Assembly (NCBI RefSeq): GCF_021134715.1
Contig: NC_060021.1
Location: forward strand, 8,526,501 to 8,590,500
Direction: 5' to 3'
Origin: Daphnia pulex
Lineage: Eukaryota > Arthropoda > Branchiopoda > Diplostraca > Daphniidae
DNA: 64,000 bases
Every line of letters starts with the position of its first letter. The stretch's first letter is position 1. Made by a program: the position numbers and the translations under genes. Under the pieces are notes generated by a model, which was given only the letters and a program-made list of their open reading frames with translations, was not told the DNA's origin and searched no databases. Shown piece by piece: positions 7,001 through 36,037 of the stretch.

Positions 7001-10000
7001 GATGGAGAGAAGAACCCCAGTGATTTTGTTGTCTGTGTACCCTCTAGCATTACGGCCTTATCGGTCATGAACTCCCGTCAGTTTCGGGTGTCCTCATAAT
7101 CCCAATACGTTGGCTTAATGAAACTTCCTCTTCTCTCATTTGATGTTGCTTCTAGTTCCCGGAAAACCTCTGAATGTATCAATTGGCGATGTTAATGATT
7201 CCACAATTGCCCTCAGCTGGTCTGAGCCGGAAAATCCAAATGGTCTCATCAAAGGCTATCGAATCTATTTCATGAGAAAGAATTTCACTGATGTCCAGAC
7301 AGTCCGCAATGGAGAAAAATTTCAGAAGTTTATTCTGACTGACCTAGGTAAGTTGACTTGAATGCTGGTTCAACAAAGTGATAATGTTATAATCTGTGAC
7401 CCTCTTTATAGAATCCTATATGGAATACAAACTTTGGCTGAAAGCTTTTACTTGGAAACACGAGGGTGAACCATCTGAACCAATTATTGTTCAGACTGAT
7501 GTTCGTGGACCAAGTGCTCCTCGTATTGCCAACCTAACCTGTCACAATGCAGACACACTGTTCTTACAGTGGCACAGACCATCTATCTACAACAAATCTA
7601 TTGATTTGTATTACATTTACTACAGGTATGGTGTTTAACATTTTTCGTAACTGGGAAACAAAACCAAAATTCTTATTTCTTTATGGTTTGTAGGAGAGAA
7701 GATGCATGGGATTTTGAAGAATTGGCTGTGGCAACCACAACTGATCGCCTGGATCACATGGTAAACCAAACAATTCCGGGGAAATCTCTTCATGAAACTT
7801 AATGAATATTTGTTTTTCCCTCCTAGATGTTCCTTCCTAATCTAACGACGAATGTGATGTACGAAGTGAAGATTCGAGGAGCTACTCGAAGTCTCTTTTC
7901 GCCCTCTAAAATCTACCCTGGTCTTTTCTCGGAATCCCGCAAGATTTTCGTTGCTCTCGACTGCGATCGGCTTTCTCTGTCTCACGTTCAGAGCGGAAGC
8001 GAGATTTTCAGTCAGGATATCGAGTTCAGCGCGGGCGTGGTTGCTGCCATGGTTTGCGCGTCATTTGCGATACTTCTCTTAGTATTGGCATTTGTCCTTT
8101 GGCGGAAATATTTTCAGGTACGAATGATAGTTTGTTTATTGTACTCGTTCAGTTTTTCAACTTCTGCCATTTTATTATTTACAGGCTGCTTACTATTATC
8201 TTGATGATGGGCCTCCCACAACACCCCCGCTCAACCAGCCAGCGTGGGATGGTGGTGAACCTCCAACGCACAATAACATGACCGTAATCGTCGATGACGA
8301 TTCAGACTTTGCTGAAAGTAAAAATAAGGAATATGGCGTCAATGCCAAAGGTATGCGAAAGCTTTCAACGGCTGCATTAGTCTCTTGCATACTTTTGAAA
8401 GAATGCTAATCATTTCTTCATTCTCCCACATTCCAGGGCCCATTCCAGTGCCGCTTTTCCCCCAACATGTGGCGACGCTGCATGCTGACGGTGACATTGG
8501 GTTCTCAAAAGAATATGAATTTGTTCAAAACGCTTCTTTCCAAGGGGAACTCAATTCTGAGCATTCAATGAATGAGGATAACAAGAATAAGAACCGTTAC
8601 TTGAACATTGTTGCATGTAAGTTGTACTCTCCGCACATTGTGCTTCTTTTTCTGGTCTTTTGAATTTGTTCGTTTTTTAACAATCGGATTTTGCTGTTGT
8701 TCACAGACGATCACTCCCGGGTTCAATTGAGGCCTTTACCAGGCCAGAAAAAGTCAACGGATTACATAAACGCTAATTACATCGATGGCTTTCAGCAATG
8801 CAGAGGTTATATTGGAACGCAAGGGCCACTACCGTCCACTTTTGACGCTTTTTGGAGAATGATTTGGGAACAGAGGGTAGCTGTCATCGTTATGATTACC
8901 AACCTAGTGGAACGCGGACGAGTAAGTGTTTTAATCATACGAAAGCGCAAAGAAAAATAAAATCATTTATTTATATTTTCCCAAACAGAGAAAATGTGAT
9001 ATGTACTGGCCCAAAGAAGGGGTGGAAACTCACGGAGTTATTCAAGTCAAATTAGTCAACGAAGACGCCAGAGCCACCTACACAATCCGGACCTTTTCGA
9101 TTAAGCATCTGAAGGTATTTATAGTTTTGGTAAATTTTATGGCCTTGAGTGTCAACAACAACAAAAAAACGTATTCTAAATAACAGTTGAAGAAGAAGAA
9201 ATCTCAGAGTGCAGAGCGAGTCGTCCTCCAGTTCCACTACACTAACTGGCCCGATCACGGCACTCCGGAACATCCGCTGCCTATTTTGAGCTTTGTTCGT
9301 CAATCCGCAGCAGCTAATCCGATTGGAGCTGGGCCAATCATCGTCCACTGCAGCGCCGGAGTTGGACGTACTGGTATGTCAAACTGTCCTTAAAAAAAAT
9401 GAGTCAATTTTTAGATCCCGGAAATCAACGTCCCTTTTTTTTCTCATTTCCAGGAACGTACATAGTGTTGGATGCTATGCTAAAACAAATCGAATGTAAA
9501 AATGAAATAAACATTCGCGGCTTTTTGTGTCACATCCGCAATCAGCGCAACTTTCTCGTCCAAACCGAAGAGCAATACATATTCATCCACGATGCTCTGC
9601 TAGAAGCAATTCAAGCTGGAAATACGAATGTCCACAGCAGTCAATTGACTCGATATCTCCAGCTTCTCCAAGTAAGATTCATTTTGATAAAACTGGAAGC
9701 GAAACAAGTTCTTAATTCCATTTTATTTGTCCTGTTTTTCAGAGCGGTTTGCCGGCTTCGCTCTTGTCAGACAAGATTATAGGAAGTAATTCGACTGCGA
9801 GTACACTAGACACGACAACTACAACCATGACGATGAATTCCATTGGCAGCCAAGAAGATTTGTGGCTGTTGCTCGATCATCAGTTCCACCTGGTGACCAA
9901 TTTTCTGGTCCAAGATTTCCACCTTTCATCTGCCGTGAAAAATTGCAACGTCCATAAAAACCGCAACGCTGCACTTGTATCCGTGGAAAGTGCCAGAGTT

Positions 10001-11056
10001 TATCTTACACCAAAGCCGGGAGTTGAAGGGAGCGATTACATCAATGCGACATGGTTACAAGGTATATTTGTTCACTTTACAAACTGTTTCTCGATAAATG
10101 TGCTCATACTATAAATTTGTTTTGCAGGGTATCAAAAATTAAAAGAGTTCATCGTTACTCAGCATCCGCTAGAGGCAACGGTGAGCGACTTTTGGCAGAT
10201 GGTCTGGGATCATAATTCGCAAACGGTCGTTGTCCTCTCAGACACAGCAGACGACGATTATCAAGTGTTTTGGCCGCTAAAGCAGGCGGATGTGGAATTT
10301 GAAAACTTTCGCGTCCGGTTTATTGACGAACATAAAATTCAATTGCCAGCAGTTGGCAACCATCCGGCACATCCTGATGAGTACGTGACCCAGATTGAAG
10401 TTGCCGCTCAGTCTCTACAGGTAATAACATATTGGACAATCATTTTCCACAAAACACTTTCTAATGTACTTTTTGCTTCCGTTCACTTTTATTCACAGGA
10501 TGATTATGAACTGCGGGTGCGCATCTTTTACTGCCCCAGCTGGCCGTATCGTGGTGCCGCCAACCCAGACCTGGCTGCCCTGTTCCGTCTGCCTAAATTA
10601 GTGATTGATTCACACCAGCAGTATCAGAACGGGCCCGTAGTAGTCGTTGACCGTTTTGGTGGTACAGAAGCAGCCACGCTTTGTGCGTTGACGACGTTGG
10701 TGCAGCAGCTTTCTCGTGACCAGCACGTCGATGTCTACATGTACGCCAAGTTGTACCACAGTAAGCGACCCAACGTGTGGCCTTCGCGGGACGACTACAT
10801 GTTTCTGTACCGCTGCGTCGAGGCCCTGCACCATCACTTGCCCGTGCCACCCTCCACTCCGCCAACGCTCCATACTTCCTTCAGCTTGCCACTGCAACTC
10901 AATGGCTATGCTGGTGGCGGTATTGGTGACACGGTGAGTTTGACGTCACTTCCACCATTGTGCACCACTCCGAGCACGACCAGCCCCAATGGGGACGTCG
11001 TTTGTTTCAGAATACCACCGGATGGTATGGAACAAGAAATGGTGGACGTCGTGTGA
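4041..11056 (+). CDS. Ptp99A: Receptor-type protein tyrosine phosphatase, Ptp99A-like (5' incomplete)
   Basis: Transmembrane phosphatase that would remove phosphate from tyrosines of membrane-proximal substrates; in flies Ptp99A acts in axon guidance. Exons I can place: 4041-4164, 5253-5434, 6237-6427, 6514-6628, 7156-7347, 7412-7625, 7694-7760, 7827-8117, 8185-8350, 8437-8616, 8707-8921, 8989-9114, 9187-9373, 9454-9671, 9743-10061, 10128-10420 and 10499-11056, all with GT..AG introns. The first exons encode FN3 repeats. A hydrophobic TM helix lies at about 8035-8100. D1 has the WPDHG loop (about 9250) and the intact [10 protein letters not shown] signature (9349-9373). D2 has WPY in place of WPD, and the P-loop is replaced by [10 protein letters not shown] (about 10650), so it lacks the catalytic Cys and Arg. 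That D2 signature is what points to Ptp99A rather than Lar or Ptp69D. The frame enters in phase 1, so the signal peptide exon lies upstream. Confidence 0.88.
4214..4237. repeat. (GT)n microsatellite in intron
   Basis: An uninterrupted GT dinucleotide run of about 24 bp lies just downstream of the first visible phosphatase exon. Confidence 0.9.
5442..5460. repeat. (TA)n microsatellite in intron
   Basis: A TA run immediately follows the second visible phosphatase exon (donor at 5435). Confidence 0.85.
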
Positions 11057-12164
11057 AACTTTGCCAATGCCAAGGAGAGGTTCTTTCTTCTTCGGCGGTT
11101 TCGTCTCTCGTTCGCCACGTTGACGAGTGCCAAAAAATGGGTGCAACACCAGTGAGTGCAAGACTGCTGCTAAAGTATTCGTCTCCTGCTCCCTTTATAT
11201 ACTCCCTCTTTGTGTCCCTTTTTTTTTTCGTTCCCTTCTGTGTATTTTTTTTTGTTCTTTTCGTTCGTCTCTAGTCAAACATCTGCACAATTTTCTTTTA
11301 AGAAGGAAATCACATCGGTTTTACAATCATATTCTTTTCTTTTCCCTTTCTGCGCAATTCCATTTATTCTTCGGATTGGGAAGAATCCAATTGACAGGTT
11401 AAGATTGTTATGACAATTTTCAACAGTGTATGAATGGGATGGGATCAAGGGTAATTCATTACCGAAGACTATTGTAGGTTGAGTTGAATATTATCAAATG
11501 TATCTCAGGCTCAAATGAATTCGCACTTTGTAACGATCTCCGATTGACAAAATTAGACAAATTCTTCTTCCTCTTTATTTTGCTTTTCTTTGTGTGTCTC
11601 ACTGTACTGTCCCTCGAAACCTTCGTCGCGCATTTCATTGCATTATATATTTATATAAATAATACGCATCCATGTACAATGATGTGTCCGTGCATTTTTC
11701 TGCAGCTCGTTCACCTTTGTTTCCTCTGTATGGTGGCAAAATATTTCGAACTCGTCTTTAATTAGACACCAAATATATGGCTAAGTGCAGCTTTATTTCT
11801 GCATTTTCTACATCATTGAGTTCTAATAATTAAGCTGGATCGCCAGTTTATAATTACTCAGTAGTTTCTAACTCGTTTTTTCCTTGAATATCCGATACCG
11901 ATACATAGATAGACATACATAGACCAAGTGTGATGCTGTTAAAACACACACACACTAGGTAGTTTTTTTTTAAAGTAAACCAAATATTCTGTATGTTTCG
12001 CAATACTGTACTAAAGCTGTAATATAATTTTGTTAGTTTTAACTATAATTCTATTAAAGCCTTCGATCATTTTCAGCTGTCAAATTAGTCAGTTTCAGCT
12101 ACTTTGCACATCCCTGTAAAAATGTATCGGCAGTTGTTGTGTGGTAACTTTTTGGTGATGACTG
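11057..12164 (+). other. Phosphatase 3' UTR and intergenic sequence
   Basis: T-rich sequence follows the stop codon of the phosphatase. There is no coding signal. It contains a short CA run near 11945 and AT-rich stretches compatible with poly(A) signals. It ends at the left edge of the large inverted duplication. Positions 12095-12200, which cross that edge, resemble 17765-17870 in the spacer. Confidence 0.6.
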
Positions 12165-12723
12165 ACGATAACTATTCCACCAACAAAGCTCACTTTTTAA
12201 TTTTTCGATAATTTTCCTTTTTTATCTACTCTACTAAATCTATTTCACGAAGATGACGAAGAATATTTAGTTTATTTTTCATTTTTTCGACTCGTCCGTG
12301 GATGCTAAGGGCTGTCACTAGATGGCTGAATATTTCAGCGTGTTTAGGGATTTAACTATTCAGCCCTAGTGTGTAGGGTGTGTCGAGATCAGCAGACCAG
12401 TGCTGCCACTATGTCGGATTTGTCAGTTTTTGTAGGATTTTCGAAGTGCTTGCATGACATTTGCAGGACGTAAGATTTTGCAGGATTTTCGAATTTTTTG
12501 TCGGATTTCTGGTAATTTTTGGGGATTTTTTGAATATCTGGTGATAATTGTATTAATCAATTGAAATTTGCAGTAGTCAACAACTGAGACCACTGTGGCG
12601 CTGTTGTCTGGTGCTCTGAGCCTAAGCCGCTCTGAGCCTGACTCTGAGTTTCTGATCTATGGACGTCTAGTCCTCTCGTTTGACTGTTTGAATTTGAGAG
12701 TTTTATTGAAAAAAAGTTCTGAC

Positions 12724-12794
12724 TTTGTTGAGGATTGAACCATCAACCGCTGGAGTTCCAATCCAGCTTGCTAACCATTTAGCTATAGGGACCT
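12724..12794 (-). pseudogene. tRNA-like sequence inside the hAT element
   Basis: The minus strand reads as a tRNA-like molecule: a D-arm-like A-box segment (TAGCTAAATGGTTAGCA), a 5 bp anticodon stem CTGGA/TCCAG around a 7 nt loop with GGA in the anticodon position, and a B-box-like GGTTCAATCC. The T stem has an unpaired base, and I see no clean 7 bp acceptor stem. It is therefore more likely a tRNA-derived relic or SINE head than a working tRNA-Ser(GGA) gene. Confidence 0.45.
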
Positions 12795-12905
12795 TATCAA
12801 TAGTTACAAGTTGTATGTATCAGATACATTAATGGTTAATGAAATGGACTCTGTCATTTTTTCGTTGCAGCAGAGAAAACATTGGGTAGTACGTTTATAA
12901 ATAAA

Positions 12906-13050
12906 GTAAATACGTTAAGTTTATGATAATTGTGTTGCTTAAAGGACTTGTTCTTTTTTATTTAACATACTTTTTAAAACTTTAAGTACGTTAAATCTAT
13001 GATAAGTGTGTTGCTAAAAGTACTTGTTCTGTAAACATACTTCATTTCAT
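12906..13050. repeat. Two-copy degenerate tandem repeat inside the hAT element
   Basis: Two adjacent units of about 70-75 bp share TACGTTAA, TATGATAA and GTGTTGCT followed by ACTTGTTCT. They occur only in the transposon and not in the right arm. Confidence 0.65.
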
Positions 13051-13494
13051 TTTATAAACATACTTTTTTTTTGTAAGCATGTTACACTTCGAAGAAGCAT
13101 GAAATTTTGCTTTTCAGTTTGTTTATAAGTCTTACCAAAAAGCGTAACGTGTTAAGTAATCCTAAAGTGCTGAAATAGGGCTAAAATAAGCATCCTACCG
13201 AGCTGCTGTGTAGTTTTTAACTGTCGGTCAACAGTATCAAAATAATGTTTTACCTGTCTGACAAGAAAAGACTTCAAATATACTAGGATAACTAGGAAAT
13301 TATGTTGGATCGTGTCGGATTTATGCGGGTTTTTTTTTTTGCAAGATTTTTGCGGGATTTTGAAGAAAATCGTGCAAGATAAAGTGCAGGATTTTTCAAA
13401 AAAAAAAAAACGGACTTTCGGGACTTTTTAGGCAACCCTGCACGACTTTGCTATTTCAGAAGTGGCAGCACTGCAGCAGACGACATTACGTTCG

Positions 13495-15330
13495 ACATTT
13501 CTTTTTCCACGAGACGCTGTTCGAGAAGGTTACCTTTTTCATGGCTCATGGTGGGGCACTTTATTTCCTGACGTTTTTCGTCAATGGTAATTCCTGTTTT
13601 ATTCTATAAGGTTATTGAATTTAACTTTTGTTTGTGCCGTCTGATTAATTTACGGGTTACATGTTAAAGACTTTGTTTCTTTAATTGAATTTTTATTTTT
13701 TTATTAACAGCCTGGTGAAGTCTGAGCTTTTTCATTGCATTACGTGCACGTGATCGCTGCCTGGTCATGAAGAGGTCTCCACTATTTTGCAAGGCAATTG
13801 ATATGAAAAGAGGAAATTTGAAAAGGTAATTAAGTACTTGTAAGCTAAATTGAGAAGGCAATCAAGTAGCATTATTAGCACTTTGTTCTTGAAATGACAT
13901 CTTATTTTGGGCTTCCATGTAACATGCTTAAATTTAAGTCTACATATGTGTGCTACATATTCTTGTTCTTTGTTAAGAATTAACTCTGGTTGTACAAATG
14001 TACATTTAACTCTTTGAAAATGTGTTATCAAGTAGAACATTCCTTTTTTTTTTAAATTAGAGAATATCATTGGCTTATCAATTTCATCTTGTTTTGTAGG
14101 GTTTCTTGTTCGGTTTGAGATGTTAATGGTGTTGTGTGGTGTGCAGTGGTTTATCAGTCATTCAGTTGGGAGATGCCCCGAGATGGATGATCAACTGCTG
14201 GGACTTCCCTCACATCATCGTCTTTTTCTATGGAGACGCTGTCCGAGAAGGTTGAGCTTGGCCATTGCAGGCAACTTTCTATCTTGACATTATTAGTCTT
14301 AAAAATGGTAATAATTAGGCCTACTGCCTATATTCCTTAAGGTTATTAAATTTAAATATTTTCTGTGGTAAACTTATGGGGATCATGGCTTTTGACTTGT
14401 ACTGTATTGTTAATCTCAATGGTTAAATTTCTAAAAGTTATTTTTCTTCAATTTGATGGTTAAATTTCTACGGTCATGAGGTCTGCTGTACACTTTCCCC
14501 AAAGTGTCGTCTCTTGGTTCATGTCGCACGTTTGTTTGCTAAGTGTTTGAATTATTCATTTACATTTGTTGGCTGAATTTTAACTTGCGATTTGTTTCGC
14601 TTTGGAACTTTTTTCACTGCAGAAAATATCTGTTCATTGATGTTCTTTTTCTCTTTAGGTTTTCATCGTCAGTTGTTGCTCTTTGGTATGCAGTTCATGT
14701 TCAGGTAAGAGATTGCTTTCTCTTATCTATTGGAAGAATTTGAGAAAATGTCTAAGCTTCATTGCTGTCATGTAGGTGGTTTTGTTGCAGCCAGCTAGTG
14801 AAAGGGAGTCCAAGTCGAGTTGAGCTGTAGCTTTTGAAGCAGTCAACAATGCTCGCGTTATTCCGAAATGTAACATCAATGAAGACATCATGAAATGGTA
14901 ATTTGATTGTGATATTGCTTTGTAACAGGGGAAGTTTCATTAAAGTCTGATTAAAATATTAAAGTGGGTTTAGAATTTTACTGAGAAGATGCTTGCTCAA
15001 CTAGCTTTTGCTGAATTGTAATCTTTTTGATTTAACTAGAACATTATATTCCCTTTTCCAAAACTTCTCATGCTATTTTTTTTTGTGATTTTAAACATTT
15101 GTTGCTGCTCAGACTTGATTTTTTATTCAAACTTGACACGACTTTTGTTTCTTTTCTTTCATTACATGTTTCTTCAGTTGGTTCAGGTGTAAATGTAAAT
15201 ATTAGATTTCTCTCGTTCTCAACAGGTCTTGGTGACGATGCGATCATTAATCTTCTGCATGCAGTTTGTTATCAAGAAGTGGAGAAGCAAGACTTGAAGC
15301 AAAGCTGCAAGAAAAAGAAATGGTAATTTG
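13495..15330. other. Series of related exon-like cassettes in the left arm (mirrored in the right arm)
   Basis: The segment 13501-13640 resembles 14220-14360 (shared GAGACGCTGT, CGAGAAGGTT, ATGGTAAT, AAGGTTATT), so the arm contains an older internal duplication. The octamer ATGGTAAT recurs at 13584, 14305, 14895 and 15320, each at the end of a related block. On the plus strand this looks like an exon end followed by a GTAAT donor. On the other strand good 3' splice sites also occur, such as TTTCTTTTTCTTGCAG in the right-arm orientation. The strand of any transcript is therefore unclear. Predicted peptides are short and unrecognisable. A spliced non-coding RNA is possible but unproven. Confidence 0.4.
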
Positions 15331-16505
15331 CCTGAGATATTATTTGTGACTTGGGAAGTGTTTAGTTTTTTATTGAAATGTAGTGTTCTATCAAAAGATA
15401 ACTTCAAACTGACTCAGAAAATTAATGATAATTGCTTTATAAGCAGACCCTTGTCTATTTTACTAAGAAAACGTTAAAAGAGAAATTCATGGTTTTCCTG
15501 TCTATCTAATATAATATCCCTGTTTTTTTCTCATAGGTATTGACGTTAATGTGCAGTGGTTGTCCGACTCCTTTTCAAGCTGTTGCTTTCCTGAATTTTG
15601 CCGGAGTCTTTGAAGTAGCTGATCCTGTCATCCTGAAGTTATGATGCCGGGGTTATCCTGGAGTATCTGTTGTTGGTGTCTTAAGTTACTGTGGCAGTTT
15701 GATTCGGGTTGATAAAAATATTAATATCCATGTAGTATGTGATGTAGTAACCTTAATAAGCTATTATGTTTTCCATTGTGGCATGTTGTGAACTGATCTT
15801 GGTCTAAAAAGCATTTGTGCTTCCTGATATTTCCCTCACCCATATATATCTAATAATTCTTAAAAATGGGATGTTAAAGTGAACATCAAATTTTTCATTT
15901 TGCGTAGAAAATTAATAGTTCATTTATTTTTCACTTTGTGAAATGACGAAATAAAAAATGATACAACCAATTTTATAAAACTAAATAATTTAATAAATTA
16001 ATCAAATAAAAATATATATTTTAAAATTAAAAATAATAAACTATATTTAATTTAATCAATTAAATAACATTTGATTTAAATAAATTAAGTTAATGTAATT
16101 AAACTTTATTAAATCAAGTTAATTCATTTAACTACTACAATTTTAGGCCAAAATGTATGAAATTTAATAAACAAAGCGTCCGGTACAAGACAAATGTTGT
16201 TCTGTGCAAATTTTAAAGCTATTTATACCCAAATAAAACAAACCTAACAAACTCCTTTTTGTCTCATTTGGGCGATAAACAGCTTTTGAAACTCGCACAT
16301 ACAGTCAATCAAGACAGGGGGAGATACTGCCTTAATTGACTGCAGCCAGAGACAACGGTTAAGACATGGCCAATGGTTAAGAGAAACCAGAAAAAGAGCG
16401 AAGAGTTGAGGAACAGTTATTACGAGAGCGATTAACCATAGTAGGCTTCCGGCTTAGACATCAAACAACTATCAGTCTTGAATTACAGCTTTCTCTTATC
16501 AGTTT

Positions 16506-17462
16506 TCACCAATGAATGAAGTCCACGATAAGTAGCGAAGGAGTTACCCTGTTGGCAGAATGAACATTTATTAGGATGACAATCATTTTAAATTACATTT
16601 TAGAGACAGAAAGCAATACCTCAAATCAAGAGGGCCTGTATCAGGAAGTAAAAAGGGATATTCAAGGGTAGCAGCCAATGGGTTACCAAACAAAGGACCT
16701 TGTTGACTGTATAGGCATTGTCCTTTTTCTTCAAAGGACATGACTTGACCTGTAAAATAAAAAATATAAAATTAAGTCACAGTCTTGTTTATGATTTGTG
16801 TCATCAATGTGCTATTAGATAGACGTCAGTACAGAACAAAACTCTAAATACATATTAGACTGCAACAAAGAAAGTTTGGTGACATTACAAGTAAACTTAC
16901 ACACTAAACTACCAATCAGTTATCCAAGGTTCTCTAGAAGATGGAATGAGAGATTGGTCCATGCTGGGGTTGGTGATCTAGCAAGTCTAATAGACAAACT
17001 GTCACATTCCAATGCTGCTCTCCAATTATCAATGGCTATCGAAAACCTAAAGAAAAAAAAAAAGATTTATCACAGGTAAGGCAAAGTGCAGAATTACAAG
17101 AATAAAGCTAAAGGGGTGATACAGGTGAACATTAATTTAATTATATGCCAAGTCCCTAAAGTGAGGATCGAATGAGCCAGGAACATGCTGTTGCTGTGAG
17201 ACAGGGTAGTGTGGAACGGATTTTTCATCTTCACCATCATTTGTGATTGACTTAATGTTTGCTCTTGCCTTGTAGTACGTAGCCTAGTAGTGTCCACAAT
17301 GAATGGAAATACATTCTGAATAACGTGCAGGTTTACCTTACCAACTGGGTGTTTTTCCTTTCAGCAATCCACTGTCCAGCACTGTTGCCCAGGTGCTGAA
17401 ACGTCTGGAATCACTTGCAGACAACATGAACGGATATCTGTCTTTAGTGCCTTCTCCTCAGT
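16506..17462 (-). pseudogene. Unrecognised multi-exon coding fragment, left copy (nonsense codon)
   Basis: On the minus strand, four exon-like blocks join in matching phases: about 17462-17342, 17046-16913, 16749-16620, and 16548 to a stop at 16506. The peptide is ordinary in composition, with pieces such as WATVLDSGLLKG, FSIAIDNWRAALECD, AWTNLSFHLLENLG and GPLFGNPLAATLEYPF. I do not recognise the family. In the second block the codon after LLENLG is TAA, while the right-arm copy has TTA. The left copy is thus probably broken. The inner edge of the inverted duplication (16993) falls inside the second block, so only the left copy keeps the upstream exon in the spacer. Confidence 0.55.
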
Positions 17463-18732
17463 GTTGTAGAAGTGTTGTAAAAGTTGGACTGGCGTCCATT
17501 AACACCTTGGGGATTTCGTCTGAACTTGTGATGTGTCATGTGTGATGCTGCGTGGTGGCTTCTTGGTGAAATTTGGCAGGGATAATATTACGTGAGTATG
17601 AAAGTTATTTGTTACCTTTGTTTGTAAATTTCTTAATTGAGTGTCAACGAGCTAGAGCGGACATTGTTTTCATGTTGCATTTAAACGTTTATTCTTTCTG
17701 ACGCTAGACGGCAATCCGGCATAGCCTATGATCATTTTTTACCCGTTAGAATCAGTTTAAATACGCTTACTTTGCACATCTCTGTAGAATTTTCTCAATG
17801 CTACTTTAAAAAAATTTTAGGTGTTAACTGTCAGTTTCTGTTTCAGCAACAAAGCTCACTTGTTAGATTTTTAATAATGTGTTTTTTTTTCTACTTCCGG
17901 TTTTCTACTTTTCAGTCAGTAGTTCAGTAAATATTCATTCGACGTCCAAAATAACCACATATTCGTGATCCTCGTCTAATTTGTGGTAAAGTTCATGTTT
18001 TTTTTTTTACGTTTTCGTACTTCCGGTTTTGAAAATTTTCCTGAACTATAGTTCAGGAAAATTCTCGATTTTGGCCAAAATATGGATTTCGTTTAAATCA
18101 CATCTAATCGATCCCAAATTTCATGGAGATCACGAATATCTGGTTTATTTTGTCGGCAGCCCGATGGTTGAAGCGCTATCGTCTACTTCCGGTATACTTC
18201 CAGAAAATTTGCATAAAACTAGCAAGTGAGCTTTATTCTTTGTACAATTCTTAAGACTCCATGCCACGTTAAGTAAACAGAAATGGTCTTTTTGATTACT
18301 TTTGTGGCGTTTTTTTACTATCTAAGGCCGGTCCTTTAGATAGTTGGTTTTGGACGTGTCAAATAGATGGCGTGAAAGAATATTGTGTTGATATGTGCTT
18401 ATGGCGGCTCGTTGTCAACAGTTCAGCTACAGCTATTTTCTTCAAAAATTACCAATGAATTCGTTGGTAAATTGGATATATTTTGTGTGTAATTTGTTGG
18501 GCATGTGTTCTTTTCCATAGATGTGTTTAATAACCTTAATATTTCTCATTCATTTCCAGGAGAAAATGTGAAAGGTGTCCTACTGTCAACTATTGTATTG
18601 TAAATCCTGGGATCCTACTGAATGTGTCATACAAATGACAGAGGTAACAACCAACACTAGCTTAATCAAGTATTGCTGAAATATATATTGTTCTCATTTT
18701 TTATTAGGATTCATCATAATTATCGATTGATT
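16994..18732. other. Spacer between the arms of the inverted duplication
   Basis: About 1.74 kb of single-copy sequence. It holds the upstream exons of the left coding fragment (to about 17462), a diverged copy of the sequence at the left outer boundary (17765-17870 against 12095-12200), and a 30 bp perfect palindrome at 18034-18063. I see nothing recognisable between about 18070 and 18730. Confidence 0.75.
18034..18063. repeat. 30 bp perfect palindrome
   Basis: The sequence is its own reverse complement for 15 bp on each side of the TA step at 18048/18049, with core CTGAACTATAGTTCAG. It lies near the centre of the larger inverted duplication. Confidence 0.85.
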
Positions 18733-21700
18733 CTATTAGACTGACACCAACCCCAGCATGGACAAATCTCTCATTCCATCTTCTAGAGAACCTTGGATTA
18801 CTGATTGGTAGTTTAGTGTGTAAGTTTACTTGTAATGTCACCAAACTTTCTTTGTTGCAGTCTAATATGTATTTAGAGTTTTGTTCTGTACTGACGTCTA
18901 TCTAATAGCACATTGATGACACAAATTATAAACAAGACTGTGACTTAATTTTATATTTTTTATTTTACAGGTCAAGTCATGTCCTTTGAAGAAAAAGGAC
19001 AATGCCTATACAGTCAACAAGGTCCTTTGTTTGGTAACCCATTGGCTGCTACCCTTGAATATCCCTTTTTACTTCCTGATACAGGCCCTCTTGATTTGAG
19101 GTATTGCTTTCTGTCTCTAAAATGTAATTTAAAATGATTGTCATCCTAATAAATGTTCATTCTGCCAACAGGGTAACTCCTTCGCTACTTATCGTGGACT
19201 TCATTCATTGGTGAAAACTGATAAGAGAAAGCTGTAATTCAAGACTGATAGTTGTTTGATGTCTAAGCCGGAAGCCTACTATGGTTAATCGCTCTCGTAA
19301 TAACTGTTCCTCAACTCTTCGCTCTTTTTCTGGTTTCTCTTAACCATTGGCCATGTCTTAACCGTTGTCTCTGGCTGCAGTCAATTAAGGCAGTATCTCC
19401 CCCTGTCTTGATTGACTGTATGTGCGAGTTTCAAAAGCTGTTTATCGCCCAAATGAGACAAAAAGGAGTTTGTTAGGTTTGTTTTATTTGGGTATAAATA
19501 GCTTTAAAATTTGCACAGAACAACATTTGTCTTGTACCGGACGCTTTGTTTATTAAATTTCATGCATTTTGGCCTAAAATTGTAGTAGTTAAATGAATTA
19601 ACTTGATTTAATAAAGTTTAATTACATTAACTTAATTTATTTAAATCAAATGTTATTTAATTGATTAAATTAAATATAGTTTATTATTTTTAATTTTAAA
19701 ATATATATTTTTATTTGATTAATTTATTAAATTATTTAGTTTTATAAAATTGGTTGTATCATTTTTTATTTCGTCATTTCACAAAGTGAAAAATAAATGA
19801 ACTATTAATTTTCTACGCAAAATGAAAAATTTGATGTTCACTTTAACATCCCATTTTTAAGAATTATTAGATATATATGGGTGAGGGAAATATCAGGAAG
19901 CACAAATGCTTTTTAGACCAAGATCAGTTCACAACATGCCACAATGGAAAACATAATAGCTTATTAAGGTTACTACATCACATACTACATGGATATTAAT
20001 ATTTTTATCAACCCGAATCAAACTGCCACAGTAACTTAAGACACCAACAACAGGTACTCCAGGATAACCCCGGCATCATAACTTCAGGATGACAGGATCA
20101 GCTATTTCAAAGACTCCGGCAAAATTCAGGAAAGCAACAGCTAGAAGAGTCGGACAACCACTGCACATTAACGTCAATACCTATGAGAAAAAAACAGGGA
20201 TATTATATTAGATAGACAGGAAAACCATGAATTTCTCTTTTAACGTTTTCTTAGTAAAATAGACAAGGGTCTGCTTATAAAGCAATTGTCATTAATTTTC
20301 TGAGTCAGTTTGAAGTTATCTTTTGATAGAACACTACATTTCAATAAAAAACTAAACACTTCCCAAGTCACAAATAATATCTCAGGCAAATTACCATTTC
20401 TTTTTCTTGCAGCTTTGCTTCAAGTCTTGCTTCTCCACTTCTTGATAACAAACTGCATGCAGAAGATTAATGATCGCATCGTCACCAAGACCTGTTGAGA
20501 AATCAAATATTTACATTTACACCTGAACCAACTGAAGAAACATGTAATGAAAGAAAAGAAACAAAAGTCGTGTCAAGTTTGAATAAAAAATCAAGTCTGA
20601 GCAGCAACAAATGTTTAAAATCACAAAAAAAAATAGCATGAGAAGTTTTGGAAAAGGGAATATAATGTTCTAGTTAAATCAAAAAGATTACAATTCAGCA
20701 AAAGCTAGTTGAGCAAGCATCTTCTCAGTAAAATTCTAAACCCACTTTAATATTTTAATCAGACTTTAATGAAACTTCCCCTGTTACAAAGCAATATCAC
20801 AATCAAATTACCATTTCATGATGTCTTCATTGATGTTACATTTCGGAATAACGCGAGCATTGTTGACTGCTTCAAAAGCTACAGCTCAACTCGACTTGGA
20901 CTCCCTTTCACTAGCTGGCTGCAACAAAACCACCTACATGACAGCAATGAAGCTTAGACATTTTCTCAAATTCTTCCAATAGATAAGAGAAAGCAATCTC
21001 TTACCTGAACATGAACTGCATACCAAAGAGCAACAACTGACGATGAAAACCTAAAGAGAAAAAGAACATCAATGAACAGATATTTTCTGCAGTGAAAAAA
21101 GTTCCAAAGCGAAACAAATCGCAAGTTAAAATTCAGCCAACAAATGTAAATGAATAATTCAAACACTTAGCAAACAAACGTGCGACATGAACCAAGAGAC
21201 GACACTTTGGGGAAAGTGTACAGCAGACCTCATGACCGTAGAAATTTAACCATCAAATTGAAGAAAAATAACTTTTAGAAATTTAACCATTGAGATTAAC
21301 AATACAGTACAAGTCAAAAGCCATGATCCCCATAAGTTTACCACAGAAAATATTTAAATTTAATAACCTTAAGGAATATAGGCAGTAGGCCTAATTATTA
21401 CCATTTTTAAGACTAATAATGTCAAGATAGAAAGTTGCCTGCAATGGCCAAGCTCAACCTTCTCGGACAGCGTCTCCATAGAAAAAGACGATGATGTGAG
21501 GGAAGTCCCAGCAGTTGATCATCCATCTCGGGGCATCTCCCAACTGAATGACTGATAAACCACTGCACACCACACAACACATTAACATCTCAAACTGAAC
21601 AAGAAACCCTACAAAACAAGATGAAATTGATAAGCCAATGATATTCTCTAATTTAAAAAAAAGGAATGTTCTACTTGATAACACATTTTCAAAGAGTTAA

Positions 21701-22457
21701 ATGTACATTTGTACAACCAGAGTTAATTCTTAACAAAGAACAAGAATATGTAGCACACATATGTAGACTTAAATTTAAGCATGTTACATGGAAGCCCAAA
21801 ATAAGATGTCATTTCAAGAACAAAGTGCTAATAATGCTACTTGATTGCCTTCTCAATTTAGCTTACAAGTACTTAATTACCTTTTCAAATTTCCTCTTTT
21901 CATATCAATTGCCTTGCAAAATAGTGGAGACCTCTTCATGACCAGGCAGCGATCACGTGCACGTAATACAATGAAAAAGCTCAGACTTCACCAGGCTGTT
22001 AATAAAAAAATAAAAATTCAATTAAAGAAACAAAGTCTTTAACATGTAACCCGTAAATTAACCAGACGGCACAAACAAAAGTTAAATTCAATAACCTTAT
22101 AGAATAAAACAGGAATTACCATTGACGAAAAACGTCAGGAAATAAAGTGCCCCACCATGAGCCATGAAAAAGGTAACCTTCTCGAACAGCGTCTCGTGGA
22201 AAAAGAAATGTCGAACGTAATGTCGTCTGCTGATCTCGACACACCCTACACACTAGGGCTGAATAGTTAAATCCCTAAACACGCTGAAATATTCAGCCAT
22301 CTAGTGACAGCCCTTAGCATCCACGGACGAGTCGAAAAAATGAAAAATAAACTAAATATTCTTCGTCATCTTCGTGAAATAGATTTAGTAGAGTAGATAA
22401 AAAAGGAAAATTATCGAAAAATTAAAAAGTGAGCTTTGTTGGTGGAATAATTATCGT
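18733..22457 (-). repeat. Right arm of a large inverted duplication
   Basis: Reverse complement of the left arm (12165-16993) without the hAT insertion. The outer edge is near 22457, where TATCGT matches ACGATA at 12165 and similarity then stops. I see no target-site duplication at the outer edges, so this does not look like one simple transposon insertion. Confidence 0.93.
18740..19214 (+). pseudogene. Unrecognised coding fragment, right copy (5' truncated)
   Basis: Mirror of the left fragment. Blocks at 18740-18807, 18971-19100 and 19172-19214 splice in phase with GT..AG sites and end at TGA (19212-19214). The codon that is TAA in the left copy is TTA here, so this frame stays open. Upstream sequence is lost because the arm begins within the exon (18733). 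A TTCTATTAG at the break happens to provide an AG, so a transcript starting in the spacer could still use it. It is either a remnant or a rebuilt gene. The protein family is unrecognised. Confidence 0.5.
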
Positions 22458-23266
22458 TAGTATGGCCATAGTTGAGAAGAGGTGGCGAATTGAGTAGCAG
22501 ACTAGCAGTGATGAGTTTAGTTCCGATATTAAAGAAGTTGAGTTTCGAGAATGGATATGTAGGCCTACCACTATCTTTTTTTATGTTCGTTACTGTTCAT
22601 TTCTGATGTGGAAACATCTTCATCCGGATGTCCGACGTACCGGCCCTACTGTTTATGTATACACACACACTACAAAAATTCTATCCAACCTATGTTGAAA
22701 TCACTCCCATAATTTCGATCAAAAAAGCAGTGATGAAACGTTAATAGCTACCAGTTGTAGGTAGGGTAATGTTACCAAGTTCATCTAATCATCTTATGAA
22801 TAATGATGTAACTTCTATTGACGTTTATAATATTTATAGGTTTGTGGGAAGTAGAGATACTAGAGAACACCGTATGTTAGTTTCCGCAGCCTTCGCCATT
22901 ACATCGCGTATTAAACGCCTTTTAACATGAGGAAGCTTTCTAAGCGTAATACATAAATACTTGAGTTTTCTTTAGAATTAAGAACGCAGTAAGTATTCTA
23001 AGTTATGTCGGTAATTTGAATATTGTTGATGAAAGTCTGTATTCATTATAAATTCTCGTTCAAAGCTTCAAATATTCAAGTAATTGGTCGAAACATCGTC
23101 CACACTATAGTTGTCTAGTATGGATGATACGAGTGTTAGATACGAACTTCAATAATGAATTCTTAAATGCTTAAAATTAAAAAAAAAAAAAAAAATCTTC
23201 ATTGAATGGAGTGATATACCACGAACTAAAAATAAAGTAATTGTGACCAGTGAATGAATACCACTG
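22458..23266. other. Intergenic region between the inverted duplication and DUSP11
   Basis: AT-rich, without coding signal. An A-run lies at about 23179-23196. The right end should contain the 3' UTR of the minus-strand phosphatase gene. Confidence 0.6.
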
Positions 23267-25107
23267 TTAGAACGCCGGAGAGTGGTTTCTGGGATCTTCA
23301 TTGCTGACTCGGCGCGGATAATCATCACGTTGGAGTCGGTTATCTGTATTCAATGCTCCATTCTCGCGTTCTCTATAATTTCGACTCTCTGCACTATTTC
23401 TCTCCCTTGCAGGCTGGTGGCGATAACGGCTGTCGGGGCGGTGATTCCGTATCTATATAAAGGCGTTACTATAAGGAAAATCGAATAGATGAAACGAGTT
23501 ATTTTTATCACATCATTTGATGGCAGTTCGTCTGAAATAGGACGTTCTTGGCGATCTCTCCTGTCGGCATAAGGTCGGTCACGGTAGTGGTTGCCACGAT
23601 AGTTATTCTGCATCAAATTTAATCAACAACAATGTAAAAACTCGAATTGAATTGATTTTGAAGCCTAGTATCAACTAACCTCGTACCAAGGTCTTCCACC
23701 GTAATAGTTACGGCTTTGTTGGTTATATACTGGTCGATATGTTGAATCTGTTGATTCACACTGATGGTTGACTTCGACTTTATCATCTCTGAGAATGAGT
23801 ATTAAATATTAAATCAATTGACCTAGACTATAAACATCTTATCCTGAAAGAAAAAAAAAAAATTATACCTTTCCTGAAACAGTGGGACTGGATTAGGACA
23901 AACTTCTTGAATCATTTGATTTAGATTCTCAATATAGTTTTCCCTTTCCATAGGGTAACCCCGAGCTTTGTTAAAAGCTACGATGACAATGAAAAAAAAA
24001 CGAAAAGGTAAAAATGTGAAGGGTTAAAACTGGAAGACTAAATAAGCCAATAAATTAGACCTGATATCGCATCCGCTGGTTGATAACCTCTTCGCACAAC
24101 TAGGTACCTTACCACCAAATACCCAGTTCTGTTAAGGCCGTGAGTGCAATGCACAACTACTACTTTCCCACGTGACATAGGGTCATGAAGAAAATTATCC
24201 ATTACTGAAAAAAATCTGCATTGAATACAAAAATTCTTTAAAAAACTATAACATTTTATAAATATCTAACCAATCTTTTTCTACCTTTGGATCGTAATTT
24301 CATCTGGAATTTCATGCCCTATGCAATAAATCTTTGCATGTTGGACTTGGGAATCAGTGAACACTTTTGGATTGTAATACCTTGTTGTTGCAGTAAGATC
24401 AATAATACAACCAACGGTTGGTACCTTTTCCATTAAATTTTTGGGGGTGAACCATTGCTCAAGATCAACATTGTTAAAATGAAGCAAGTGCTGTGAAATG
24501 AAAAGGGAAATTTTATTTAAATAGAATAAAAAGTATAAATGTCATCAAACCTCGTTTAAAGGAACTCTACAAGCCAAGATGGGTAATCCTTCTATCGGTT
24601 CTCCAATACTGGGATAATTTTCCCACCTACATACAAGAGCAAATATTAAATATTAATGAAATTTAAAAGTTAAAAGATATGCAAACCTGTTGGGGATTGG
24701 ACCAGGATTTCCAAAAGGTGGATTGTGAAAGTCATTTGGGTGATTACTGTAGTTGTTTACTCCTCGTCCTCTTCCTGTAAATGTAAACATGAAACCAAAA
24801 AATTATAGCTACATGCTCATACGCTAATAACTTTATGGAACTTGGAACTATACCTCTATAAGTAGGCCTACTGTCAGTAGAAAAATGGTGTTGTACACAA
24901 CTTGTACTTGCTGATGTTGAACTGTCACTTTCTAAATCAGTAGAAACAACCCCCATTTTCGAAGATGTGTTCACACCTGAAACAAACAGTAGAATCAAAA
25001 CTGCTGTTTATTAAAAAATAGCATGATTTAAAACCAAATTTACCTTGTTTCTCTGCATCAGGATTTGACTGAATGCCTTTCACCGGATTTTCTGATCGTT
25101 CATTCAT
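23267..25107 (-). CDS. DUSP11: RNA 5'-phosphatase, DUSP11/PIR1-like
   Basis: Cysteine-based phosphatase of the RNA triphosphatase type, which removes 5' gamma/beta phosphates from RNA in the nucleus. The start at 25107 is the first ATG of a coherent frame. Exon 1 is 25044-25107 and exon 2 ends at 24976. The next exons encode a short RGRG stretch, an IPNRWENYPSIGEPI-like entry, IIDLTATTRYYNP (about 24390) and the catalytic HCTHGLNRTGY (about 24150), which matches DUSP11 and the capping-enzyme triphosphatase rather than protein phosphatases. The C-terminal part is Arg/Tyr-rich (about 23600-23720). I place a last intron with donor near 23529 and acceptor near 23450. It leads in phase 0 to a long Arg-rich tail ending PRNHSPAF with stop at 23267. 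Reading straight through instead gives a hydrophobic frame that ends at 23350. Confidence 0.87.
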
Positions 25108-27440: not shown

Positions 27441-30172
27441 ATGGAGAGTGAAAAAACCCCTAGTCTTTATCCCAGTCTTAATCCAGATACTTTGGTCGAA
27501 ACTGCAGGCGAGAAACCAACGGTCATCCAAAATCCAACCGAGGATCGTCCAGGGAAAAAGCCTTACAATGAATCGGCAGAAATTCAAAGTAATTGTTCAT
27601 TCCCTTTGTTTCTTTTTTTAAAATTTGTCTTATGTGATTTGAATCGCCATTTTTAGGGGAAATGCGAAAACTGCGTGAGCGAGACGAGGAAGAATTTCAC
27701 AAGAAGCAACAAGAGATTAGGAGGAGGATCGATAATCACTTGAACCAGCACGGAGGAGACTTGGCGCATCTGTTTAGTCAACATGTTCCCAATGAAGTGA
27801 ATTGCGTTCAGCTGACCAGTTTTGGAGTCTCGAAGAACGTCCACACCACGAAGATTCCACTACCGCTACCCTTGAACCACGAAATTCTCATCCGCGCTTA
27901 CTCTTGGTAATTATTCGAACGCATTTAAATTTATAGCCTTATTCTTTCAAGCTTAAGCGTACTTTTATTTTAAACAGCGGTGTCAATTTCAATGACATCA
28001 TGACTCGCAACGGAATGTTGGACACTTGGGTTCACACTCTAAAAACGCCTTTCATCATGGGAAGTGAAGTTGCTGGCGAAATTGTCGGACTGGGGAGAAA
28101 CGTTACAAATTTTAAGGTAAATCCTATTCCCCACTCGTATTTGAATCTCGCTCTAGAAACTATAACATCGTCTTCAAATAGTTTGGAGATCGTGTTATGG
28201 CTCTACCGGAACGCAAAGCCTGGAGTGAATATGTTGTCTGTCGGGAGGAATACTGCTTCAAAATTCCTGATCAGATGAGCTATCACGAAGCTGTAGCTTT
28301 GACCGTCGATGGAATCGTAGCCCATTCCTTGCTATTCCAAATGGGGAATCTAAGCCCTGGCAAAGCTGTTCTCCTACACTCGACTCCTGGGGGATTGGTA
28401 ATATTATTTAAACTCGGGTTTTTTCTTAACTCCAGTTGAATTTGAATATTTGTTTTCCATAATAGGGTACGATGGTGACTCAAATGGTACGCACCGTGCC
28501 CAATACTCGCATCTTCAAAATTGCCATGAACAAAGAAGAGGTACAAGGCGAGTCTGCCGACCGGATCGTCAATTACATTGATCATGATGCTGATTACGTT
28601 ACCGAAATCCGTCATAGTTCACCTCATGGAGTTGATTTGGTACTTGACTGTCAATACGAGGACAATTTCCAGCGCGATTTCAATCTGTTGAGACCAATGG
28701 GCAAGTATATCCTGTTCGGAACTCAGGCAGCTATCAACCGCGGATTTCTCGACAGCGCTAGATCTGTAAGTAGAAACAAGAATTCATGTCAGGTGTTTTC
28801 AGAATATAACTTGTAACTCTTTTTACAATTACTTTACAGTGGTGGGGCCAAGAAAAAGTGTCGCCATTGAAACTCTACGAGGAGAACAAGAGCATCTGTG
28901 GCTTCAACCTGCGTAATCTGTTGTACTTCCAGAAGGATCGCCGCTACATCCGCGAATTGTTCGACCGAATCTGCACAATGTGGGAAGACGGCGAGATCCA
29001 GGCTGTTTATGACTGCGTCCTTCAGTTCGATGATGTAATCAAAATAATTAGCAATAACAGTAGTAACTTTACTAATATAAAATGTTGATACAGTTCCCTG
29101 AAGCTCTGCAGCGCATGCAGGAGCACGGACAGAACGGCAAAATCATTCTTGATCCAAGAATGACGAAACAAGAATCGCTTCACGAGCGTGACTACTACGT
29201 GTTGGCCGAGAGGAACGTGAAACAGCGTCACTGGCAAGAGAAACCTTTGCTGAACAAACTAGGATTCCCAGAGCCGGGCGAATTGGTCGAAGATGAGGAA
29301 TTGGCTGCAGAGAACAAGGAGCGTGCCAGGCAGCAACAGCAAGAGGAAATGCAGAAGAAAATCCTGGAACAACAACAACAACATACCACTGGATTAATGC
29401 CGAATTTGTTTCCGGTAGGAAGCTCTCGCGGTCACGAACGTTCCACTTTGGACACCATCAAAGAAAAGCTAACTCCAAGTTTTCTCTCTAGAGAATCTGC
29501 AGGTAAACGATAGAAAGCTTTATTTTTATCTCCTGCTGATTTTTAAACGTCATTTTTCAATTTTCTGTAGAAGGTACGATGCCGCAAGCGAACATTGAGA
29601 CGGTAGGAATTGCCCCCGTTGGCATGATAATTGGGGAGCCTACATTAGGTGTGTAATTTTTTAAACAAGTTCTTTTTTTCTTAATAATGTACTATTTGCG
29701 CTACTATTACGACTATAGTTACTACTCAAGACACCTTCCCGCAGTTGCCGAACCCACCACCATTATCTCCTTATTCGGTTGAGAATGGTAAGCGATCTCT
29801 CTTCCAATTTTCGGTTAGTTGAATTTAAACTATGGTTATGCGTATTTCAAGTACTATCCCACATATCGAGTTCTAACGAACCATTGATGTCTCCTACGTC
29901 GACGATCTCACCCCAGGGCTTTCCATCAATGGAAACGCAGCAACCCATTCTATCGAAAGAAAAAGGTACGTTGTTTTTCTTATCTTTAAAATAAAAATAA
30001 TGAGTGCACACTAATCAGTAAATAAATAATCTGTAAAGTTGAGTTGACGCTTCCGATGACCACTAAAGAAATGAAAGATTTCAAGGAGGAAATTCCCGGA
30101 GCTCTTCAGGAAGAGAGAAAACAGCACACGGGCTTCATGGAAAAACTTCGTGAGTTCTTCCCTTCTCGTTAG
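27441..30172 (+). CDS. VAT1-like medium-chain dehydrogenase/reductase, copy A
   Basis: Eleven exons join in phase to 683 residues: 27441-27588, 27657-27906, 27978-28116, 28182-28397, 28466-28765, 28840-29034, 29094-29502, 29571-29648, 29719-29787, 29852-29965 and 30039-30172. An N-terminal charged coiled-coil-like stretch (REMRKLRERDEEEFHKK) precedes the GroES-like fold (GVNFNDIMTRNG, FIMGSEVAGEIVGLG) and a nucleotide-binding core with HSTPGGLGTMVTQ in place of the classical GxGxxG. Zinc ligands of alcohol dehydrogenases are absent, as in quinone-oxidoreductase-like MDRs. The match is to vesicle amine transport protein 1 (VAT1) homologues, which bind NADPH and associate with vesicle or mitochondrial membranes. 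A Gln/Glu-rich C-terminal extension of about 200 residues ends with HTGFMEKLREFFPSR. It is tandem with copy B. Confidence 0.85.
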
Positions 30173-31174: not shown

Positions 31175-33497
31175 ATGTTGTGTGAAGAACAGCATGAAAC
31201 CCCATCGAATCTGTACAGCAGTCGAGATGTCCTCGATGTGAATGAAAAATCAGGTGAAAATCCATTACCAACATGTATGGAAAATACAGCATCCGAAGGT
31301 CGTCAGGAAGAAGGTTCCTTCTGTCAATCAGAGGAAATTCAGAGTAAAATTTTTAACATTAACGTACGTTTTCCTTGTCTTAATTCATTCAACGTAATTA
31401 AAATTAATGTAGAAGAAATTGAAGAACTCCGTCGGCGAGATGAAGAAGAGTGTCGCCTTAAGCAACAATTTGTTAGGAGTAGAATCGACCAACACCTGAT
31501 CCAGAATGGAGGAGACCTTTCTCTTTTGCTTAGTCAACATACTGTGCCTAATGAAGTGAAGTGCGTCCAGCTAACTCACTTCGGTCAAACGAAAAATATA
31601 CAATCGGACAAAGTACCGCTACCCTTACCGATGAAAGGCGATGTCCTCATTCGTTCTCATTCCTGGTAATTATGTTGTTTAATTCACGTAAAATTCAAAT
31701 TATTTACTTGATCCTGCTTAGTGGAGTTAATTTCCACGACACTATGACGCGCAACGGAATTCTGGACAATTGGGTTCGATCCACGAAGCCTCCTTTCATC
31801 ATGGGAAGTGAAGTCGCTGGTGAAATCGTTGGATTGGGAAAAAATGTTACTGATTTGAAGGTACACATTTATCCGTAAAAAATATGACACTTAAAACCTG
31901 ACCGAATAACTTGTGTCCTTGCAGTTAGGAGATCGTGTTATGGCTCTTCCGGAACGCAAAGCCTGGAGTGAATATGTTGTCTGTCGGGAGGAATACTGCT
32001 TCAAAATTCCTGATCAGATGAGCTATCACGAAGCTGTAGCTTTGACCGTCGATGGAATCGTATCCCATTCTTTGCTTTTCCAAATGGGTAATCTAAGTCC
32101 CGGCAAAGCTGTTCTCCTACACTCGACTCCTGGGGGATTGGTAATGTTCAACTGAATTTATAACTAATCTTTAATTCGGTAATTTTAAGTTTTGTTTTCT
32201 TTCAGGGGACTTTGGTGACTCAAATGGCGCGCATCGTGCCCAATACTCGCATCTTTAAAATTACCACGGAAAGGATGGATGGCAAACATGTCGAGTCTTC
32301 AGATCATGCAGTTCACTACATTGAGCGTGACACAGACTATGTTTCTGAGATCCGTAACAGCTACCCACACGGAGTTGATTTAGTCTTAGATGGTCTACAC
32401 GAGTCTAATTTCCATCGGGATTTTAATCTGCTGAGTCCCATGGGCAAATATGTTCTCTTCGGAAATCGAACAACTAACGGCGGACTCTTCGACACCGCAA
32501 AATCTGTAAGTATGATCAAGTGTAATTATTTCTGTTATCTGGCTTACCGATGTCTGAAAATTAAAATCTTCTATTTTCAATTTTATTTGCAGTGGTTGGG
32601 GCAGGAAAAAGTAACGCCATTGAAACTCTACGAGGAGAACAAGAGTGTCTGTGGCTTCAACCTGCGTAATCTGTTGTACTTCCAGAAGGATCGCCGCTAC
32701 ATCCGCGAAACATTCGACAAAGTCTGTCAAATGTGGCAAGACGGGGAAATTCAAGCCGTTTTCGATTGCATCCTTCAATTTGATGACGTAATAATCCAAA
32801 AGCATACATCCCGTTTACATTTTTGTGCTTTATAAATTAATCTGAAATGGTAATTTACATATGATTAGTTTAATGAAGCACTGCAGCACGTACAAGAGCA
32901 TGGACAAGTTGGCAAAGTAATTCTTGATCCAAGAATTTCGAAAGAAGATTCGCTTAACGAGCGTGACTACTACTTGTTGGCAAAGAAGAACGTAAAACAC
33001 CGACGGAGACAGGAAAAATCTTTGGTGAAGAAATTAGAGGATGAGATGGCGAAACGAGAAAAAACATCATGGGAGGATGAAGAAGACGAAGAAGATGAAG
33101 AAGACGAAGAAGACGATGAAGACGACGATGAAGAAGAAGAAGCGGAAGAGGAGAAGGAACCATCGGCAACGCTGCGATATGGTGATGAGAATTCTGGAGT
33201 GTTCCCTTACTATTTTCCTATACCTATGCCATATTTCTCTACAGTTGGCCCATATTGCGACTAAGTTTTACATGTGAATTTCATTGAATGAATGATTAAT
33301 GTTCATTTGCATGCTTTATAATATCTCATTTTGATCTTTACACAGATGATCCTGAAAATATTACCTTGCCAACTAGCAAGAAAGAAGAGGAGAATTTAGA
33401 GCGCAAGATTTCGCCTGATTTGCATGAAGGAAATGAACACAAGCACGTGCACGGATTTTTGGGAAAACTGCGCGAGGTGTTCTCTCCCAATGTTTAG
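31175..33497 (+). CDS. VAT1-like medium-chain dehydrogenase/reductase, copy B
   Basis: Paralogue of copy A with the same intron positions. Exons 31175-31343, 31413-31665, 31722-31860, 31925-32140, 32206-32505, 32593-32787, 32869-33181 and 33346-33497 join in phase to 578 residues. It carries GVNFHDTMTRNG, FIMGSEVAGEIVGLG and HSTPGGLGTLVTQ. The tail differs from copy A: a Glu/Asp run encoded by GAA/GAC/GAT repeats (about 33064-33160), then, after a GTGATG donor at 33182, a last exon ending HGFLGKLREVFSPNV, which resembles the end of copy A. Without that splice the frame ends at 33264 after a short hydrophobic tail. Both forms could exist. The first intron is open in frame, so retention is possible. 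Exons 4 and 6 are nearly identical to copy A in DNA. Confidence 0.82.
33051..33160 (+). repeat. Acidic (GAA/GAC/GAT)n repeat in coding sequence
   Basis: An imperfect trinucleotide run encodes nearly uninterrupted Glu/Asp in the C-terminal extension of VAT1-like copy B. It is absent from copy A, which has CAG/CAA-rich codons at the matching place. Confidence 0.85.
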
Positions 33498-35581: not shown

Positions 35582-36037
35582 TTTTAAAGCAACTTGAGAT
35601 ACTTTTTTAAATGAGTAGAAATGCCGAAATTTTCTTCGTTGCTTTATTATCACGGCAATAACGAATTTGGGAAAATTCAACGTCAATAGTGAAAATCCAA
35701 TCCAATATCGGTTGAATTATGACGCACCTTCGCCTTATCGTTGACCATCACAGTTTTCATATGAGAACAACTCATATGTATCTCACTATCTCAAGGCACT
35801 CAGCAAAAAACAATCATAGCCCGCCTAAACCAAATAAAAGTATACAAACGATAAATCATTTGTCGAAATCGTCTGCTAGCCTAGATCAAGTTTTTATTTT
35901 TTACATAGCTAGTTATTTTCTACGATATTTTCTAAAATTGATGGCAACGATAAATTTAACGATGAAAATTAAAATTGAAATTTCTTCATTTTAGAGAATG
36001 ATAAATTATTTTAAAATTATTTATTAAGTAAATTGTA
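35363..36037. repeat. Tandem duplication, copy 1 (contains active oxidase exon 1)
   Basis: A 675 bp unit that recurs at 36042-36716 with an offset of 679 bp and a 4 bp junction (TTGT). The copies look identical base for base where I compared them. The unit holds the end of oxidase intron 1, exon 1 and the divergent upstream region. Confidence 0.93.

Follow-up and report, generated by a model that had tools for sequence, protein, structure and literature searches.

A large Daphnia pulex palindrome from a palindrome-forming repeat family, with arms probably made alike by gene conversion

Gene conversion between the two arms of a palindrome is best documented on sex chromosomes. In mammals, palindromes of the X and Y have arms that are more than 99% identical through arm-to-arm gene conversion (PMC8981503, PMC6790999), and the palindromic repeats of the willow sex chromosomes provide a case of gene conversion outside mammals (PMC7023750), while for the parthenogenetic animals Adineta vaga and Folsomia candida it has been proposed that palindromes and inverted duplicated blocks permit gene conversion (PMC7953838). 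D. pulex lies outside the 23 genomes screened in that survey, being one of three species left out for want of an annotation (PMC7953838).

The palindrome under study (here called W, its left and right arms WL and WR) resembles those of the mammalian sex chromosomes in having large inverted arms that are more than 99% identical and appear to evolve in concert, but it differs from them in that its arms contain no recognised gene and that its unit comes from a repeat family present on several chromosomes. Inverted duplicated blocks are common to W and the parthenogenetic animals, although in the latter they are defined by gene collinearity, while the willow palindromes are, like W, non-mammalian, and have gene conversion of the sort proposed here for W, although they are sex-linked. 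Although W belongs to a known class of palindromes, it stands out as only one of many built from a single repeat family. A literature search, incomplete in its journal coverage, gave among the matches listed no paper on Daphnia palindromes, on hairpin-RNA loci there or on the family to which W belongs. The reading preferred here, to which a probability of roughly 0.77 may be given, is that W consists of inverted family copies placed around one spacer, that its arms have been overwritten by gene conversion, and that its junction is common by descent with that of a second palindrome (P2) on the same contig.

The window, that is the whole stretch of DNA analysed, is 64 kb long (C5:8526501-8590500), and the genome searches spanned 133,188,837 bases in 13 contigs. 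The main parts of the palindrome, with the arms delimited by BLAST and by a more sensitive alignment, are as follows:

12161-16994, forward strand: left arm (WL), split by an insertion at 12398-13473
16995-18731, forward strand: spacer of 1737 bp, a conserved part of the family, single in W
18732-22461, reverse strand: right arm (WR)

The large near-perfect inverted duplication reported in a preliminary description of this DNA is thus confirmed. By BLAST, the inner blocks (13474-16975 and 18745-22232) are 99.26% identical with gaps counted and the outer blocks (12161-12397 and 22225-22461) 99.16%, and with the insertion left out 15 substitutions separate the arms over 3725 aligned bases (13/3488 in the inner and 2/237 in the outer blocks), along with 4 gaps; the 8 bases at 22225-22232 are tallied in both blocks because they match either copy of the insertion's target duplication (CAGCAGAC). 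The more sensitive alignment, in which the arms extend as far as 16994 and 18732, gives 99.09% identity. A match of such length cannot be due to chance. The spacer length of 1.74 kb given earlier agrees with that measured, while the outer limits had been placed 4 bases off.

The same description had noted a private insertion and point changes between the arms, and both are found, the former being the following:

12398-13473, no strand assigned: hAT-like non-autonomous element of 1076 bp, in the left arm only, with terminal inverted repeats and a target duplication

Its ends read CAGTGCTGCCACT and AGTGGCAGCACTG and form 13-bp terminal inverted repeats, while the 8-bp target duplication CAGCAGAC lies at 12390-12397 and 13474-13481; its last 474 bases, the portion used as query, have copies of 95-98% identity dispersed over the genome. 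We take it to be hAT-like by class, from its short terminal inverted repeats and 8-bp target duplication. Together with the dispersed copies these are the properties of hAT-type non-autonomous elements, and by its sequence the insertion appears to be an ordinary member of that class. Given that it is confined to one arm, it probably arrived after the arms had been homogenised there.

W is not unique. When the spacer and the right arm served as queries, with the best 40 of 744 and the best 40 of 978 candidates respectively being scored, family members were located on C5 (from 7 to 11.8 Mb), C12, C7, C8, C3 and C11, these being lower bounds, and single copies have the layout of about 0.6 kb, then the spacer, then the arm, with a total length of roughly 6-7.5 kb. 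Across the family the stretch corresponding to 17016-19580 of W is about 87-98% conserved in most 60-column windows, with a dip to 76-84% near 18907-19037, while on either side of it the unit is mostly 60-87% conserved. Within the conserved block lies a short core:

17811-18251, forward strand: family core of about 440 bp, with ends resembling terminal inverted repeats (AACAAAGCTCACTTG and CAAGTGAGCTTTATT)

Core identity is about 95-98% in close copies. It falls to 85-86% at two loci, C8:13.88 Mb and C7:11.03 Mb, which otherwise match W only in a piece of the outer end (12062-12230). With up to 3 mismatches allowed, a 32-base segment from the core is present at 485 places genome-wide (231 forward, 254 reverse), as against 0 for the reversed control. 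On this evidence W belongs to a dispersed family with frequent inverted pairs. Rather more speculatively, the core of about 440 bp could be a chromosomal element under selection (a boundary, replication or recombination site) and not a passive repeat, with its inverted pairing important, hundreds of sites genome-wide, and pairs kept alike by gene conversion; this is unlikely. The core places among the matches listed leave gaps of 6.2-7.5 Mb mid-chromosome on C2, C3, C5 and C7, and an outer-end match at 8.50 Mb falls just within the gap on C3.

As to coding content, six open reading frames of the palindrome unit gave no Pfam match above the cut-off, and no transposase-like domain was found among the ten window frames compared (these six and two from each flank). 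When nine aligned copies of the spacer and inner arm were scored in codon windows, 0 of 654 were free of stops; the proportion of silent changes peaked at 0.55-0.57 within the core (18035-18215), with 2 stops. One candidate coding stretch (17366-17545) is open in W, yet was rejected on account of stops or frame-breaking indels in other copies, and similar frame-breaking indels occur in the other exon-like pieces of the unit. Splice-like signals are conserved across family copies, but reading frames are not. The family is accordingly without recognised coding capacity, though small exons or a non-coding gene may be present.

Conserved splice signals without conserved frames would suit a non-coding transcript, and the geometry of W would allow one to run across both arms, so as to form a 3.7-kb duplex that could be diced into siRNAs. 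A hairpin-RNA gene of this kind, an idea raised in the preliminary description, is nevertheless very improbable: the conserved block is also present in three non-palindromic copies (S3, S7 and S6), so that a hairpin is not conserved family-wide, and Rfam gave 0 matches at gathering scores in the part of the window between 10000 and 25000.

Twelve core-bearing loci were read with long flanks, and seven of these, W included, are palindromic; several had been picked for paired-looking search rows, so that the sample is non-random and 7/12 is no rate. The other six palindromes are:

C5:8367140-8379609: P2, 171 kb from W; arms 98.8% identical by BLAST, with 23 mismatches in 5355 and 10 gaps
C12:8972567-8996378: inner arms 99.94% identical over 5.2 kb, outer arms 95.2% over 9.8 kb
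C8:11084158-11096885: arms 99.0% identical over 5.8 kb
C8:13872001-13881919: second palindrome on C8, 99.56% over at least 3.86 kb
C7:11030740-11040000: arms 95.3% identical
C7:1616080-1625800: second palindrome on C7, 99.9% over the outer 1.4 kb and 92.7% over 2.9 kb further in

The five loci without a long palindrome are S3 (C5:7.71 Mb), S7, S6, C2:0.52 Mb (read no further than about 4.5 kb to either side) and C7:9.39 Mb, which has short arm-like matches of 72-80% on its left side and could be a decayed palindrome. Outside these twelve, C8:13.845 Mb (3.1 kb read) has inverted ends that are 99.5% identical over 442 bases. By way of a side observation, degenerate tandem arrays encoding YYTEAPKYYTT-like peptides lie in the arms of the palindrome at C7:11.03 Mb (L045 13-1723 and 7860-9152), and a similar array lies upstream of the single copy S3 (L024 1263-3707); a literature search for this peptide repeat gave no paper.

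A wider view of orientation comes from a list of 150 core places, made up of 100 listed of 485 (all with zero mismatches) and 50 more C6-C7 places from 100 listed of 215. Among these there are 31 neighbour pairs no more than 15 kb apart, 24 of them divergent, 4 convergent and 3 direct, so that 28 of 31 close pairs are inverted (p = 5e-6 against one half). For a motif at the inner arm edge, the 100 listed of its 208 places include 15 inverted pairs as against 3 direct ones (p = 0.008). The two sets have some of their places in common, and for both the control on orientation is the 50:50 expectation alone.

The outer ends of W are not equivalent to one another. On the left, family sequence extends beyond the arm to about 11992, as judged from the copy on C11, while on the right 22462-23797 matches nowhere else in the genome:

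11992-12160, forward strand: the family unit's outer end, running on beyond the arm at the left but not at the right (C11 copy)

Further to the right, 23798-24474 has matches of 67-68% on C10 (two places) and C1, and is possibly a dispersed gene or repeat. Given that the usual join of arm and spacer lies on the right of W and the usual outer end on its left, either recombination between the arms has inverted the spacer or the right-hand end has been trimmed. No target duplication was seen at the outer ends of the arms, and the earlier judgement that W is not an obvious transposon holds on this point as well as on the result for transposase-like domains in the window frames. A foldback-type DNA transposon, having very long terminal inverted repeats and moving as a palindrome, would fit the many dispersed copies, the frequent inverted pairs and the core with its TIR-like ends, but it is quite unlikely in view of these non-equivalent ends, of the lack of a transposase-like domain in the frames tested within the window, and of the five loci among the 12 read that lack a long palindrome.

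Evidence as to origin comes from the point at which the left arm meets the spacer:

16980-17010, forward strand: 31-base probe across the junction of left arm and spacer, in which the arm reads ...CAAGTCTAATAGA and is followed by CAAACTG... of the spacer, with an AGA overlap

At up to 3 mismatches this probe has 2 matches in the genome, both of them perfect, one in W and the other at C5:8372511 in P2, while the single copies S3, S7 and S6 run leftwards past the junction point with family sequence that is missing from W and P2. Within each of the two palindromes the arms are 99.63% and 99.60% identical, as compared with 91.4-91.5% between W and P2, and the P2 arms are nearer to the single copy S3 (95.0%). 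In about 2.4 kb of the inner arm 136 sites group the arms by palindrome, 0 by same side and 0 across sides, and in the arm tree WL with WR, P2L with P2R, and P2 with S3 each have a bootstrap of 100. Near-identical inverted arms are a known type of assembly artefact, and this is the one point in favour of such an explanation for W; with 15 substitutions, gaps and an insertion with its target duplication separating the arms, and with the junction recurring at a diverged locus, it is scarcely credible. The previous opinion that an assembly error is less likely is strengthened by this identical junction 171 kb away, at a locus with arms about 9% diverged.

Sites shared by two of W, P2 and S3 form a mosaic. 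Over 16992-19491 there are 8 shared by W and P2, 7 by W and S3 and 1 by P2 and S3; the bin at 19492 has 1 for W and P2 and 1 for P2 and S3; and from 19992 on the counts are 1, 6 and 40 respectively. As P2 is sister to S3, which is not a palindrome, shared descent of the palindrome also requires that loci have exchanged sequence or that its origin was more complex. Differences between the P2 arms are clustered, 14 of the 23 lying inside 150 bp (reached in 0 of 20000 random placements), a patchiness to be expected of conversion tracts, though the alignment has 10 gaps and may be partly misaligned there. Differences between the W arms are unclustered (p = 0.127).

Some of these results are also what would be seen after a young, single-step fold-back inverted duplication, in which a template switch at AGA led to the right arm being copied outward and the arms are alike because the event was recent. 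The 3-bp AGA overlap at the junction, the 99.6% identity of the W arms with their unclustered differences, and the grouping of P2 with the non-palindromic S3, as expected of an independent recent event, all suit it. It is nonetheless unlikely, for two reasons: an identical junction exists at a second locus whose arms are about 9% diverged, and the left arm has at its inner edge six bases that neither the right arm nor five sister copies possess, which means that the present right arm was not its source:

16976-16981, forward strand: ATCTAG, a sequence shared with the wider family, at the left arm's inner edge; lacking in the right arm and in the five sister copies

Here WL and the left arm of P2 read GGT(G/A)ATCTAGCAAGTC, matching the copies at C7:9.39 Mb and on C12, while one deletion, leaving GGTGCAAGTC, is common to P2's right arm and to four copies, at C5:8.12, 8.67 and 8.81 Mb and at C8:9.81 Mb. 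WR has a variant of this common deletion, GGTGTCAGTC, which is two letters apart and may be an independent change, and in S3 ATCTAG is gone in another form (GGTGCAAGCTGCAAGTC). Allowing up to 3 mismatches, the inner-edge motif of the wider family is present at 208 places genome-wide. Since the left arms have ATCTAG and the right arms do not, the present right arm was not the template for the left edge. To judge from these sequences, WL and WR were probably not copies of each other at the start but came from different family copies, and the close match along the remaining 3.5-5.4 kb of the arms was most likely imposed later. From the inner-edge states within one genome, we infer that the arms of W are older than their divergence suggests.

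Under the preferred reading of inverted family copies with converted arms, then, two copies of the dispersed family would have been joined in inverted orientation with one common spacer between them, the arms being derived from different copies, as suggested by the family state at the left edge that is missing from the right arm. The junction would have arisen once and be common by descent to W and P2, where it is identical and is otherwise absent. Gene conversion between the arms, with a broken arm being repaired on the template of its inverted counterpart on the same chromosome, would subsequently have overwritten nearly the whole length of the arms, leaving the inner edge unconverted, as the pattern of differences suggests, and the hAT-like element would have entered the left arm afterwards. 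The arms of W would on this account look alike mainly through homogenisation and not through youth alone, and no function is proposed for W itself beyond that of a recombination substrate. Daphnia alternates between clonal and sexual reproduction. A family that forms palindromes, a junction present at two loci and a marker of ancestry at the level of single bases together provide a natural test of the speed and reach of conversion between inverted repeats.

A few other features of the window may be mentioned. Exons with a protein-tyrosine-phosphatase domain (Pfam PF00102) lie at 9716-11056, about 1 kb to the left of the palindrome, and were the sole open reading frame above the cut-off of the ten compared. 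A direct duplicate of about 1.3 kb (27976-29262 and 31720-33037) has 76% identity, and imperfect direct repeats of 320-340 bp occupy 56180-56812. Finally, 35363-36037 and 36042-36716 are perfect tandem copies of 675 bp separated by 4 bp, either a very recent duplication or an assembly duplicate.
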